In this document: piece after piece, positions 3,106 to 28,193 of the stretch
Numbering within the stretch: position 1 is the stretch's first letter
Layout of the letters: the number at the start of each line of letters is the position of its first letter
Assembly (NCBI RefSeq): GCF_028764065.1
Contig: NZ_JACOFN010000007.1
Span: forward strand, 1 to 64,000
Direction: 5' to 3'
Source of the DNA: Fructobacillus sp. CRL 2054
GTDB taxonomy: Bacteria; Bacillota; Bacilli; Lactobacillales; Lactobacillaceae
Length of the DNA: 64,000 nt
The notes under the pieces: generated by a model
Told to the model about the DNA's origin: nothing
The model's database searches: none
Seen by the model: the letters and a program-made list of their open reading frames with translations, nothing else
Translations under genes and position numbers: made by a program

Positions 3106-3184
3106 TCTGTATTTTGTTATAATGGCGGCATAGTAGACAAGTGAAGATGGTGGCGGCCCTTTTTTTACAAAGGAGGTGGTGCAT

Positions 3185-3262
3185 ATGAACGTATACACTA
3201 ACTCTAGAAAAGGAGGAGACGCCGGTGGTTCCGATTGCGGAAGCACTACAGCTAGTGATTAG
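3185..3262 (+). CDS. leader peptide overlapping the holin-like toxin
   Basis: A 25-codon frame (MNVYTNSRKGG..., polar and Gly/Ser/Thr-rich) with a very strong AAAGGAGGTG ribosome binding site. It overlaps the first dozen codons of the toxin in another frame, and the toxin's own AAAAGGAGGAG site lies inside it. The broken duplicate at 3.98 kb also keeps a leader frame (13 codons). Translation of the leader could open or shield the toxin start, as upstream frames do in several type I toxin mRNAs. It may also be a by-product of a conserved ribosome stand-by site. Confidence 0.4.
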   Translation: MNVYTNSRKGGDAGGSDCGSTTASD

Positions 3263-3332
3263 CTTTGCGATTCTTATCGTAATGATCTTATCACTAGTTG
3301 TTGCGCTTATTAATTTAAGCAAAAGAAAATAA
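3225..3332 (+). CDS. holin-like small toxin (Hol_Tox type), 35 residues
   Basis: A 35-residue peptide starting at GTG: short N-terminus VVPIAEALQ, one long hydrophobic helix (about residues 8-29), an N-L-S linker and a basic end KRK. This is the form of the 'putative holin-like toxin' peptides common in lactobacilli, which are type I toxins acting at the membrane. The ribosome binding site AAAAGGAGGAGA lies 7 bases upstream. The mRNA continues into a hairpin AACCATC/GATGGTT right after the stop and a terminator at 3415-3450. An antisense RNA is expected to cover the 3' part, but I could not place its promoter with confidence. A 110-base near-copy lies at 4006-4115. Confidence 0.65.
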   Translation: MVPIAEALQLVISFAILIVMILSLVVALINLSKRK

Positions 3333-24516: not shown

Positions 24517-25458
24517 ATGAATCAGAAAGAGTTCTTGTTGGCCATTCATTTAACGAAAGGAATTGGCCTTGTTCGTAAGGAAAAAATTATTCGAGCAATT
24601 GAAGCAGAACAGGTGGAAACGAAATACCCCTGGTCCTTTGCGGAACTAATCGCTGTTTTAGAATTAAGAGGGCAAGAGCGATTGGTTAATCAGCTAGCGA
24701 CTGCTTATCAGGAGGGCCTTTTGCTGGCGAGGAATTACCCGGATGCCTACCTTTCGTACTTTGATGACGAGTATCCGCCATTGCTAAAGGAGAGTTATCA
24801 GACACCGCTGATTCTCTTTTATAAGGGGGACTTGCGGGCATTGCAGTTGCCTGCTTTGGCAGTGGTAGGGACCCGAACGGCAACGGCCTACGGCCAGGAA
24901 GTGTTGAGAGATTTGCTGCCACCCTTGCTTGAAAGGGGAATTGCCATTGTATCTGGTTTAGCGAAGGGGATTGATGTGATGGCGCATCAGGTGACTTTTG
25001 CACATGGGGGTGTTCCGATTGCGGTGATCGGATCAGGGATTGGACGGGCCTATCCGGTACAAAACAGACGTTTGCAGGAGCAGGTAGCGGAACAGGGACT
25101 CTTATTATCCGAGTATCCACGAAACGTCGGCCCCAGTCGGGGACACTTTCCAGAAAGGAATCGAATCATTGCGGGCTTAACCCGAGCAACCCTGGTTGTG
25201 GAAGCTAAGAAACGGTCAGGCTCTCTAATTACGGCTAATTTAGCCTTACAGAATAACCGGGAGGTTTTTGCAGTACCCGGTTCTATTTTTTCCGCAGAAT
25301 CCCGTGGTTGCCATGAAATTATTCAGGCGGGAGCAGTGCCTGTCCAATCAGTTGAAGATATTCTAAAAAAATGCAAATTTTACAAATTGATGTCATTTCC
25401 TTTAAAATTCATACCGAATCGGGAAGAACTGTGCTATGATTTATACAACTTTAAGTGA
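24517..25458 (+). CDS. dprA: DNA-processing protein DprA
   Basis: A 313-residue protein of the DprA/Smf family that loads RecA on incoming single-stranded DNA in transformation. The Rossmann-like core shows AVVGTRTATAYG, IVSGLAKGIDVMAHQ, GSGIGRAYPVQNR and EYPRNVGPSRGHFPERNRIIAGL. The C-terminus is odd: after the core (SVEDILKKC) comes a 24-residue hydrophobic/basic tail that does not resemble a DprA winged helix. The stop codon lies inside the attenuator that precedes codB. DprA is usually next to topA; here codB, codA and one further gene have come between them. Confidence 0.9.
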   Translation: MNQKEFLLAIHLTKGIGLVRKEKIIRAIEAEQVETKYPWSFAELIAVLELRGQERLVNQLATAYQEGLLLARNYPDAYLSYFDDEYPPLLKESYQTPLILFYKGDLRALQLPALAVVGTRTATAYGQEVLRDLLPPLLERGIAIVSGLAKGIDVMAHQVTFAHGGVPIAVIGSGIGRAYPVQNRRLQEQVAEQGLLLSEYPRNVGPSRGHFPERNRIIAGLTRATLVVEAKKRSGSLITANLALQNNREVFAVPGSIFSAESRGCHEIIQAGAVPVQSVEDILKKCKFYKLMSFPLKFIPNREELCYDLYNFK

Positions 25459-25557
25459 TTCAGAGAAATCAGAAGTTGCAAAATATTAAATTTTACCTGG
25501 GGTTTTTAGACCCTTTTTGCAGCGCTCTGAATCACCGATGGTTCGAAGCGCTTTTTT
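25455..25557 (+). promoter_or_regulatory. PyrR-type transcription attenuator before codBA
   Basis: A 5-bp hairpin TGATT/AATCA (25456-25471) presents the loop CAGAGA, which fits the CNGNGA loop of PyrR-binding RNA. Its 5' arm, GTGATTCAGAG (25455-25465), is also perfectly complementary over 11 bases to CTCTGAATCAC (25525-25535), forming an antiterminator. That second segment lies inside the terminator hairpin AGCGCT...AGCGCT (25521-25551) followed by TTTTTT. PyrR with UMP would hold the small hairpin and so allow the terminator to form. The stem departs from the usual PyrR consensus (UU/AA instead of UC/GG near the loop). Confidence 0.6.
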
Positions 25558-25581
25558 CTTTGCAATGAATGGGGGAGTCTG

Positions 25582-26952
25582 ATGGATAATCAAAAACACT
25601 ATCGTGTTCGGCCAATTCCGGCCGAAGAACGAAACCTAGGTAAGTGGGACATGTTTGCCACTTGGTTTGGGGCCAATGCGAACAACGGAACTTGGTACAT
25701 TGGTGGAATCATCGCGGCCTGTGGCATGATTGGTGGACTATGGGCATTGCTCATTGCCTCGATTTTGTCTTATATCTTCTTAAGTTTTATTTCCTTTATG
25801 GGTTACAAGACCGGTCTTTCGACTACCACGCTGAGCCGTGCAACCTTTGGAATTCGTGGCAGTATCATTCCATCCATGATTAACTTCATTATGTTTATGG
25901 GTTGGACGGCGGTGAACACATTCATTGCGGCCACATCGCTTTCTTTCATCTTTCACAGTTTCTTTGGTTGGCCTGTCTACGGTCAAGCTGGTGGAAACAA
26001 GGGCTTGATTGTCGGCATTCTGATTATGTCGGCCTTGCACATCATGAGTATTATTTCTGGACAAAAGTCGGTCCGAATTATTGAACGAATTGGGATTCTT
26101 TTGGTTATCTTCTTCGTTCTCTGGGAGGGCATCGTGGTTTTTCGTCACGTTTCCTTTAACGAATTGGTGAACTGGGTGGTACCCGCTAAGGACCGGATGC
26201 AGTTCGGAGCAGCCATCGATATCTTAGCGGCCTTTAACCTGGCCTGGGTCACTTCAGCAGCAGACTTCTCGCGTTTTGCAAAGACCAAGACGGTTTCAAC
26301 GGTATCTTCCTTCTGGGGTGCCTTGGTTGGTGTCGTTGCCTTTGCGGCCATGGGTTTGAGTACGGCCATTTCGATTGCTTTGACGACGGGCATTTACAAG
26401 CCTGACAACTCTGATCCATCAACGGTTGCTAATGAACTGGGATTGGGAACGATTGCCATGATTGTTATCGTTTTGACGAGTATGACGGCCAACGCGGTCA
26501 ACTTGCAGGCCGCGGGTTCTGCTTTGAATAACATCTTCAGCAAAATTTCTCTTCGAAACGCACTCTTGATTTCAACGATTATCGCCACTATCTTTACCTT
26601 TATTCCAGTTATTAACGGGGATTTCCTAGCGGACTTTACCGCCTTCCTGGACTACATCGGGATGTTCCTTGGCCCAATCATTGCCATCATGATTGTTGAT
26701 TACTTCTTACTCCACAAGGCTGATTACCAGCGCCAAAACTTTGAGAAAAGTCAGGGGCGTTTCTGGTTCAAAGGTGGCTATAACTTCATGGTGATTGCTC
26801 TCTGGGTTGTTGGGGTTTTGATGTATCTCTACCTCTCAAACGTAGAATTTTTGAAGGATACTACCGGGGCGACTTTCCTAGTCATGGTTGTGATTGGGGT
26901 TGTCTACTACGCCTTAGTAAAGTTGACGAATCGTTCAGGTGAAGCACAATGA
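25582..26952 (+). CDS. codB: cytosine permease, NCS1 family
   Basis: A 456-residue NCS1 nucleobase transporter with 12 predicted helices and the family opening (KWDMFATWFGANANNGTWYIGG within residues 21-42, where the substrate and cation sites start). Its stop codon overlaps the codA start (ATGA), so the substrate is most likely cytosine. The Shine-Dalgarno GGGGGAG lies 6 bases before ATG. Expression is probably limited by the attenuator just upstream, which would respond to pyrimidine nucleotides. An extended -10 (TGTGCTATGAT) near 25433 inside dprA may be its promoter. Confidence 0.88.
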   Translation: MDNQKHYRVRPIPAEERNLGKWDMFATWFGANANNGTWYIGGIIAACGMIGGLWALLIASILSYIFLSFISFMGYKTGLSTTTLSRATFGIRGSIIPSMINFIMFMGWTAVNTFIAATSLSFIFHSFFGWPVYGQAGGNKGLIVGILIMSALHIMSIISGQKSVRIIERIGILLVIFFVLWEGIVVFRHVSFNELVNWVVPAKDRMQFGAAIDILAAFNLAWVTSAADFSRFAKTKTVSTVSSFWGALVGVVAFAAMGLSTAISIALTTGIYKPDNSDPSTVANELGLGTIAMIVIVLTSMTANAVNLQAAGSALNNIFSKISLRNALLISTIIATIFTFIPVINGDFLADFTAFLDYIGMFLGPIIAIMIVDYFLLHKADYQRQNFEKSQGRFWFKGGYNFMVIALWVVGVLMYLYLSNVEFLKDTTGATFLVMVVIGVVYYALVKLTNRSGEAQ

Positions 26953-28193
26953 TTATTAAAAACGCACGGATTGAAAACGCAGCAGAAACAAGTGATATTC
27001 GGATTGAAAAGGGTGTGATTACTGAAATTGCACCATCGATTGAAGTGACTGCTGCCGAAGAGGTGTTGGACCTCAAAGGAAAGCTCGTCTTGCCACCCTT
27101 TGTCGATTCCCACGTTCATTTGGATTCAACGCTCACTGCCGGGCAGCCGGAGTGGAACGAAACGGGGACGCTTTTTGATGGCATAAGAATTTGGGCGGAA
27201 CGAAAGAAGACGTTGACTGAAGCCGATGTGAAGAAACGAGCCATTGCCACCTTGAAGAAGCAGGCCAGCCATGGTGTGCAGTATGTCCGTAGTCACGTTG
27301 ATGTGACAGACCCTAACTTAACGGCTCTGAAGGCTTTGTTAGAGGTCCGTGAAGAGGTGAAGCCCTTCATGGATTTGCAGCTGGTGGCCTTCCCACAAGA
27401 TGGCATTCTATCCTTTCCAAATGGAAAAGAGTTGATGGAAAAAGCGGTTCAGATGGGAGTGGATGCCGTTGGTGGTATTCCACATTATGAGTTCAATCAA
27501 TTCTATGGAAAGGACTCTTTGGAGTTCTTAGTTGATTTGGCAAAGCGTTATGACCGTTTGGTTGATGTTCACTGTGATGAAATCGATGATCCGAATTCAC
27601 GAAATCTCGAAGTCCTGGCGACTTTGGCTTATGAGAGTGGTTTGAAGAATAAGGTGACGGCCAGTCACACGGTTTCCTTTGCCTCCGTGCCCGATGCTTA
27701 CGCCTACAAGCTCATGCGTGTTTTGAACATGTCGGGTATTAACATGGTGGCCAACCCATTGGTTAACATGCATCTTGGTGGTCGCTTTGATACTTATCCT
27801 AAGCGTCGTGGCTTGACGCGGGTAAAAGAGTTGTTAGAAAATGATGTCAACGTTTCCTTTGGTGAAGACGACGTGAAGGACCCCTGGTACCCAATGGGGG
27901 ATGGCAACATGCTGGACTCTCTTTATGTCGGTATCTTAGCCTCTGGCTTGATGGGCTACACCCAGATTCAAAATGCTTACAAGTTGATTGGTGAGAACGG
28001 GGCCAAGACTTTGCATCGAGAAGAGGGATACGGTGTTAAAGTCGGCAAAGAAGCCAATTTCTTAGTCTTCGATGAGGACAACTTTTACGATGTTTTGAAT
28101 GAACGCCGGACCATGCTTTATTCCTTCCACAAAGGAGAAGCCATTATCCAAAATCATCCTGTACAGACCATCAGCCATCTGAAAATGAAGTAA
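26949..28193 (+). CDS. codA: cytosine deaminase
   Basis: A 414-residue amidohydrolase that converts cytosine to uracil and ammonia for pyrimidine salvage. Metal ligands are seen in DSHVHLDST (residues 53-61), the central VHCDEIDD and TASHTVSF, and the late Asp in SFGEDDVKDPW. The length matches E. coli CodA (427). It overlaps codB by four bases, so uptake and deamination are coupled. Uracil would enter UMP through the usual phosphoribosyltransferase, which is not in this window. Confidence 0.93.
   Translation: MIIKNARIENAAETSDIRIEKGVITEIAPSIEVTAAEEVLDLKGKLVLPPFVDSHVHLDSTLTAGQPEWNETGTLFDGIRIWAERKKTLTEADVKKRAIATLKKQASHGVQYVRSHVDVTDPNLTALKALLEVREEVKPFMDLQLVAFPQDGILSFPNGKELMEKAVQMGVDAVGGIPHYEFNQFYGKDSLEFLVDLAKRYDRLVDVHCDEIDDPNSRNLEVLATLAYESGLKNKVTASHTVSFASVPDAYAYKLMRVLNMSGINMVANPLVNMHLGGRFDTYPKRRGLTRVKELLENDVNVSFGEDDVKDPWYPMGDGNMLDSLYVGILASGLMGYTQIQNAYKLIGENGAKTLHREEGYGVKVGKEANFLVFDEDNFYDVLNERRTMLYSFHKGEAIIQNHPVQTISHLKMK

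Follow-up and report, generated by a model that had tools for sequence, protein, structure and literature searches.

Hairpins bound by PyrR follow a consensus in which a CNGNGA loop, an upper stem, a purine-containing 5′ bulge and a lower stem succeed one another. Fields and Switzer are said to have described, in 2007, PyrR-dependent translational repression in Mycobacterium smegmatis. In the available portions of two publications (PMC6296669 and PMC4347634), regulation by UMP and PRPP is treated as established and UMP-bound PyrR disrupts the antiterminator; the first of them also places a PyrR element before the uracil transporter gene SP_1286 of Streptococcus pneumoniae. Like the attenuators of pyr operons in Bacillus subtilis and S. 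pneumoniae (Rfam family RF00515), the codBA leader analyzed here has a CNGNGA loop and a 5′ bulge, contains a mutually exclusive antiterminator and terminator, belongs to a genome with pyrR and precedes a target in pyrimidine metabolism. It differs from them in that the target is codBA and in that its AT-rich stem is missed by Rfam. A possible further difference is that here the hexaloop itself lies within the antiterminator arm. As in the case of SP_1286, the putative PyrR element stands before the gene of a pyrimidine-base transporter, although the base is uracil there and is taken as cytosine here, with a deaminase gene in the same operon. The resemblance to the M. smegmatis case lies in an action of PyrR on the mRNA of pyrimidine genes, whereas the switch described here looks transcriptional, and one of its relatives (L037, see below) may be translational.

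A search of the main texts of the open-licence literature brought up no description of codBA being controlled by PyrR, and none appears in the portions consulted of PMC12802215, PMC10672894, PMC3933689, PMC13328217, PMC3766115, PMC2965389 and PMC10886434. The portion of PMC3766115 analyzes PyrR motif regulons, including a class for pyrimidine transporters, and an earlier prediction of codB as a PyrR target is possible in its supplements or in RegPrecise. Measured against these portions, the mechanism and a PyrR element before a uracil transporter are already known, and the codBA target appears to be new.

The window, i.e., the whole stretch of 64,000 nucleotides that was analyzed, comes from a Fructobacillus genome of 1.33 Mb (G000), and its codBA leader occupies about 125 nt between dprA and codB (Table 1). 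The nearest named CodB found is that of F. durionis, with 95% identity in the best segment. No NCBIfam model was over its own cut-off for the CodB of the window (TIGR00800 scored 182.8 bits, under the cut-off of 353.1), and the protein is taken as a cytosine permease, its substrate being deduced from codA, the start of which overlaps the codB stop. On the basis of the evidence presented below, we give a probability of roughly 90% to the reading of this leader as a PyrR-dependent transcription attenuator for codBA.

Table 1. Features of the codBA leader and adjacent genes (positions in the window)
Feature	Position	Strand	Description	Basis
dprA	24517-25458			
codB	25582-26952	+	NCS1-family permease, 456 aa	PF02133, 188.2 bits (cut-off 23.5)
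codA	26949-28193	+	Cytosine deaminase, 414 aa	NF006685, 571.9 bits (cut-off 483)
Possible extended −10 promoter element TGC-TATGAT	25432-25440	+	5 nt 5′ of hairpin	By eye
PyrR-type binding hairpin (anti-antiterminator), putative	25446-25478	+		Minimum-energy fold of own stretch
Hairpin lower stem	25446-25451/25473-25478			
Hairpin upper stem	25456-25460/25467-25471			
Hexaloop CAGAGA	25461-25466			
Antiterminator 5′ arm GUGAUUCAGAG	25455-25465	+	Holds five of the six loop bases	
Antiterminator 3′ arm CUCUGAAUCAC	25525-25535	+	Also in terminator 5′ arm and loop	
Second antiterminator helix, 5′ arm GUUGCAAAA	25475-25483	+		Minimum-energy fold
Second antiterminator helix, 3′ arm UUUUGCAGC	25515-25523	+		Fold
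Small central hairpin GGGGUU-UUUA-GACCCU	25499-25514	+	Caps antiterminator	Fold
Intrinsic terminator	25521-25557	+	Stem 25521-25552 with one 1×1 mismatch; U run 25552-25557	
codB ribosome-binding site GGGGGAG	25571-25577	+		By eye

The putative binding hairpin, CAACUU(UAAG)UGAUU-CAGAGA-AAUCA(G)AAGUUG, fits the PyrR consensus in its UUUAA and CAGAGA motifs, its two stems and its covarying upper stem, with UAAG as the 5′ bulge; the minimum-energy fold draws one extra U-G pair (25452/25472). The hairpin is kept in F. durionis and at loci L058 and L059. Downstream, the 11 bases GTGATTCAGAG (25455-25465) are the exact reverse complement of CTCTGAATCAC (25525-25535), and since both segments are shared with other structures, the antiterminator that they form excludes both the binding hairpin and the terminator. 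A preliminary description of this DNA had noted a hairpin with a CAGAGA loop, an exact 11-base pairing and a terminator before codBA, and we found all of them in their places; the interval that it gave (25455-25557) contains these elements and leaves out the 5′ arm of the hairpin, which in full starts at 25446. The 5′ arm of the second antiterminator helix shares bases with the 3′ arm of the hairpin lower stem. In L058 and L059 this second helix has other bases and retains its pairing, while the arms of the central hairpin differ yet are pairable in F. durionis and L058 (both by eye and uncounted, the former in alignment A2). The terminator was the best one found downstream of the loop by the pairing-test script; a simple terminator scan listed none in 25300-25700, and the stem contains a 1×1 mismatch.

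The whole leader folds preferentially as the antiterminator, with 25455-25465 paired to 25525-25535 and 25475-25483 to 25515-25523 (−31.5 kcal/mol, z = −2.85, 3 of 200 shuffles as good). The antiterminator stretch (25455-25545) reached −29.6 kcal/mol (z = −4.21, 0/200), the hairpin stretch (25440-25488) −7.7 kcal/mol (z = −2.06, 5/200) and the terminator −15.8 kcal/mol (z = −3.12, 2/200). Six 11-base inverted repeats with gaps of 20 to 120 were counted in the window, whereas 20 first-order Markov simulations averaged 1.85, and only in the codBA leader does such a repeat have CNGNGA at its first arm together with a T run following its second arm. Taken alone, the repeat is weak evidence, and the comparative evidence is stronger.

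Two candidate promoters were found upstream. The TGC-TATGAT element was not listed by the consensus promoter scan, which gave TTTACA-18-TAAAAT at 25379-25408 on the plus strand; a TGN followed by a −10-like hexamer is seen by eye at an equal distance in F. durionis, L058 and L059. Either candidate would yield an RNA with the complete hairpin. Within 25354-25458, the dprA ORF has seven consecutive A, one more than F. durionis (L033), and the extra A carries the frame about 30 residues further, into the codBA leader; the difference may be genuine or due to a sequencing error. The first bases of the hairpin overlap the final codons of dprA, which would suit a terminator that just ends the dprA transcript, with the complementary arms as a by-product of that terminator and an upstream repeat and with codBA constitutive, all the more as a lone 11-base inverted repeat is expected about twice in the window. 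However, dprA ends 5′ of the hairpin in F. durionis and L058 (and by eye in L059), the UUUAA and CAGAGA motifs are invariant in the codB leaders of four Fructobacillus, the sequence farther downstream being divergent, and the hairpin with its loop and pairing is found again at pyrB and pyrF, which do not follow dprA in the loci examined, making a mere end of the dprA transcript very improbable.

From the anatomy of the leader, which the sequence shows, we infer the binding of PyrR, its ligand and the direction of the response. At high UMP (or UTP), nucleotide-bound PyrR would hold the hairpin closed, the loop CAGAG could not pair with the CUCUG of the terminator, the terminator would form and transcription would stop before codB. 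At low UMP, or with PRPP displacing UMP, the antiterminator would form and codBA would be made; CodB would then import cytosine, CodA would convert it to uracil and the product of upp would turn uracil into UMP, closing the loop. As CAGAG is itself an antiterminator strand in Fructobacillus, PyrR would act by masking the strand that invades the terminator.

The genome of the window encodes the proteins that such a switch would use. Its pyrR (G000:C4:40276-40797) scored 225.7 bits versus a cut-off of 138, and the product resembles solved PyrR proteins (1a3c, from B. subtilis, E = 2.2e-57); upp, for uracil phosphoribosyltransferase, is also over its model cut-off. Among 13 Fructobacillus genomes searched, pyrR was found in all 13 and codB in 6 (E ≤ 1e-30). 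A second leader of like anatomy precedes pyrB in the genome of the window (L068, hairpin at G000:C23:57724-57752), so that its strong sites are two, codB and pyrB, and a like architecture was found before pyrB or pyrF in other Fructobacillus. Counting against the PyrR reading, no attenuator was seen by eye before pyrR-carA in the genome of the window, nor did models R1 and R3 (see below) match there, and PyrR would therefore seem to be without direct control of its own operon. The pyrR gene (L026) sits between a gene for an RluA-family pseudouridine synthase and carA, with spacings of 30 and 35 nt.

To search for similar hairpins, three models were used: R1, built only from 16 codB hairpins (Fructobacillus, Weissella, Companilactobacillus and one metagenome-assembled genome); R2, from four Fructobacillus codB hairpins only; and R3, from 15 hairpins, 10 of them from Fructobacillus. 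An alignment of 20 hairpins (A4) has gaps in the stem and was unused for models. The window leader was part of the R1 and R3 training sets, so its own scores with them prove nothing. At E ≤ 1, R2 gave six matches beyond codB in the 13 Fructobacillus genomes, five of them before pyrF (E = 0.019 to 0.059), and R1 gave five, four of them before pyrB, including one remnant (E = 0.26 to 0.66). These E-values are weak singly, and their weight comes from the agreement on pyrimidine genes (9/11). R3 produced 16 matches at E ≤ 2.6e-4, spread over 12 of the 13 genomes (codB, 4; pyrB, 7; pyrF, 5), the next match (E = 0.017) falling within an ORF; 10 of the 16 were training members, and the 6 nonmembers, some of them near-identical to training hairpins, were all before pyrB or pyrF. 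The PyrR-type attenuator suggested by the preliminary description is thus supported by the pyrR gene, the like leader before pyrB, the reach of codB-trained models to pyr leaders (E = 0.02 to 0.7) and the covariation described below.

Two of the six codB-bearing Fructobacillus genomes (G007 and G009) lack the hairpin before codB, against the PyrR reading, and G009 has no strong site anywhere. Terminator-like sequences were seen by eye before codB in G009 (L034/L060) and G007 (L061), and another control of codB in these two genomes is possible. In G007 (L067, 923-1336, minus strand), a PyrR-type leader precedes only the start of pyrB, which is fused in frame with the terminal part of a dihydroorotate dehydrogenase gene and followed by pyrF; a deletion within this pyr operon seems to have kept the leader.

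The Rfam PyrR model (RF00515) did not match the window leader at E ≤ 10, which counts against the PyrR reading, and the leader was not among the 25 weak RF00515 places in its genome. Nor did RF00515 find anything at its gathering score in 20 other codB loci, 16 of which have a hairpin of this type by reading, and we take this as a low sensitivity of the model rather than exclusion; an RF00515 match is a convenience of annotation and no part of the mechanism. At gathering score, the only Rfam match in the whole window was to rli28 (RF01492, a Listeria sRNA family) at 3108-3296 on the plus strand (64.3 bits versus 45). The blank Rfam PyrR result would also be expected if the leader were a riboswitch that binds a metabolite (cytosine, hydroxymethylpyrimidine or some other base) instead of a protein site, and the NCS1 permease does resemble hydroxymethylpyrimidine transporters as well (TIGR02358, 170.9 bits, under the cut-off of 309.85). 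We regard a riboswitch as extremely improbable, since the conserved core is limited to one hexaloop hairpin about 33 nt long, the same hairpin type is common to pyrB, pyrF, pyrR and uracil-permease-type genes, and neither the window nor 20 related loci gave a match to a known riboswitch family at gathering score.

Covariation, set as a test by the preliminary description, is present both in the binding hairpin and in the antiterminator. In alignment A5 (15 hairpins, 14 distinct), both partners have changed at every one of the five upper-stem pairs, and 97.1% of the cells are paired compared to 15.7 to 48.6% when the partners are displaced by one to three columns. The antiterminator comparison, with 16 leaders from Fructobacillus (13 distinct), gave 142 paired cells of 182 and 18 double changes, and neither count was reached in 1,000 column shuffles. 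Because terminator segments were picked via CTCTG or two variants of it, this choice accounts in part for the pairing of the loop columns, and the shuffles test the columns other than the loop; as they preserve columns and not relatedness, these numbers are guides and not probabilities. The full CAGAG/CUCUG loop match was found in 14 of the 16 codB, pyrB and pyrF leaders, departing, against the PyrR reading, in L059 (CACUG) and in the pyrB leader L104 (CUCAA). In the duplex test, at most 7 of 200 shuffles were as good in 12 of 13 Fructobacillus leaders, with 62/200 in L059, so that the pairing is kept in the genus and is weak in this one leader. In L069, the terminator picked by the script was another hairpin, and the pairing was seen by eye in the L068-type terminator. 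Also against the PyrR reading, shuffled sequences fold as well as the hairpin of the pyrB leader in the genome of the window and as that of C. kimchiensis. A decayed site, a relic in which the hairpin persists and PyrR binds poorly, would agree with the AT-rich stem and with the two codB-bearing Fructobacillus genomes devoid of hairpin, but the loop is identical and the arms are strongly conserved in four species and the changes in the antiterminator compensate, which makes decay quite improbable. A PyrR-dependent attenuator is the reading that we retain.

To place the locus within its family, 151 Lactobacillaceae genomes, including that of the window, were surveyed. A CodB match (E ≤ 1e-80) was found in 70, and R1 gave 59 matches in 54 genomes (E ≤ 0.05, with filters that lose weak matches). 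An R1 match lay 74 to 124 nt before CodB on the same strand in 16 genomes and 621 to 1,295 nt before it in 5 more, and these 21 genomes span 11 of the 22 genera in which codB occurs. R1 matched nothing near codB in the remaining 49 genomes with this gene, which stands against the PyrR reading, although the filters lose weak matches. The preliminary description had called control of codBA less usual than that of de novo pyrimidine genes and uracil permease, a statement that needs qualifying for Lactobacillaceae, with the hairpin at codB or one gene upstream in 21/70. Besides the window, 29 of the 59 R1 matches were examined and all 29 were before pyrimidine genes (by position or eye; six representatives were checked), namely codB itself, pyrB, pyrF, pyrR, a uracil-permease-type gene or, with codB next in line, a deoxyribosyltransferase-type gene. 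Its training on codB leaders biases upward the proportion of codB among R1 matches. NCBIfam naming of eight loci (five from the family and three from Fructobacillus) gave PyrB (L068, L104 and L133), PyrF (L075 and L134), PyrR (L144) and an NCS2-family protein near uracil permease (L143), and nothing for L129. In the four loci examined of genus g15 (L129, L136, L142 and L148), one gene lies between hairpin and codB; a nucleoside deoxyribosyltransferase domain (PF05014) was identified in that of L129, and the other three were assigned by eye.

The arrangement around the hairpin varied among genera. In Companilactobacillus, an antiterminator using the 5′ arm was found in six of seven leaders, with 3 to 45 of 200 shuffles as good, a modest support; the leader of C. 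mindensis (L048) has a degenerate hairpin and no pairing. Eight Weissella leaders, including L046, showed no convincing pairing of the 5′ arm with the terminator (34 to 195 of 200 shuffles as good), and a candidate pairing of the 3′ arm is visible by eye. The loop of Weissella codB leaders (L038 to L045 and L054) is CGAGA or ACGAGAG and not a clean CNGNGA hexaloop, and that of W. cibaria (L046) is CAGAGA. In a Lactobacillaceae metagenome-assembled genome (L037, 2960-2998), a PyrR-type hairpin with the loop CCGTGA lies over the codB ribosome-binding site AAGGAGG. This genome encodes PyrR, there is no terminator between hairpin and codB, and the leader before its pyrB (L153) looks by eye like the usual arrangement with a terminator, which suggests a translational control of codB by PyrR; the different minimum-energy fold and the single genome speak against it. 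The hairpin would thus be wired to cytosine salvage in several ways across Lactobacillaceae, by a loop-based antiterminator in Fructobacillus, a 5′-arm antiterminator in Companilactobacillus, another arrangement in Weissella and a covering of the ribosome-binding site in L037. We hold this variety, together with a masking of the loop strand by PyrR in Fructobacillus, to be an even bet.

Leaders from several genera escape the public PyrR RNA model, and PyrR regulons of Lactobacillaceae may consequently be underannotated. The candidate translational version in L037 would let transcriptional and translational wiring of one protein-RNA contact be compared. If the proposed attenuator is true, a textbook feedback switch would be extended from pyrimidine synthesis and uracil uptake to the salvage of cytosine, and the survey suggests that this link between PyrR and cytosine salvage is recurrent in lactic acid bacteria and absent in some species.
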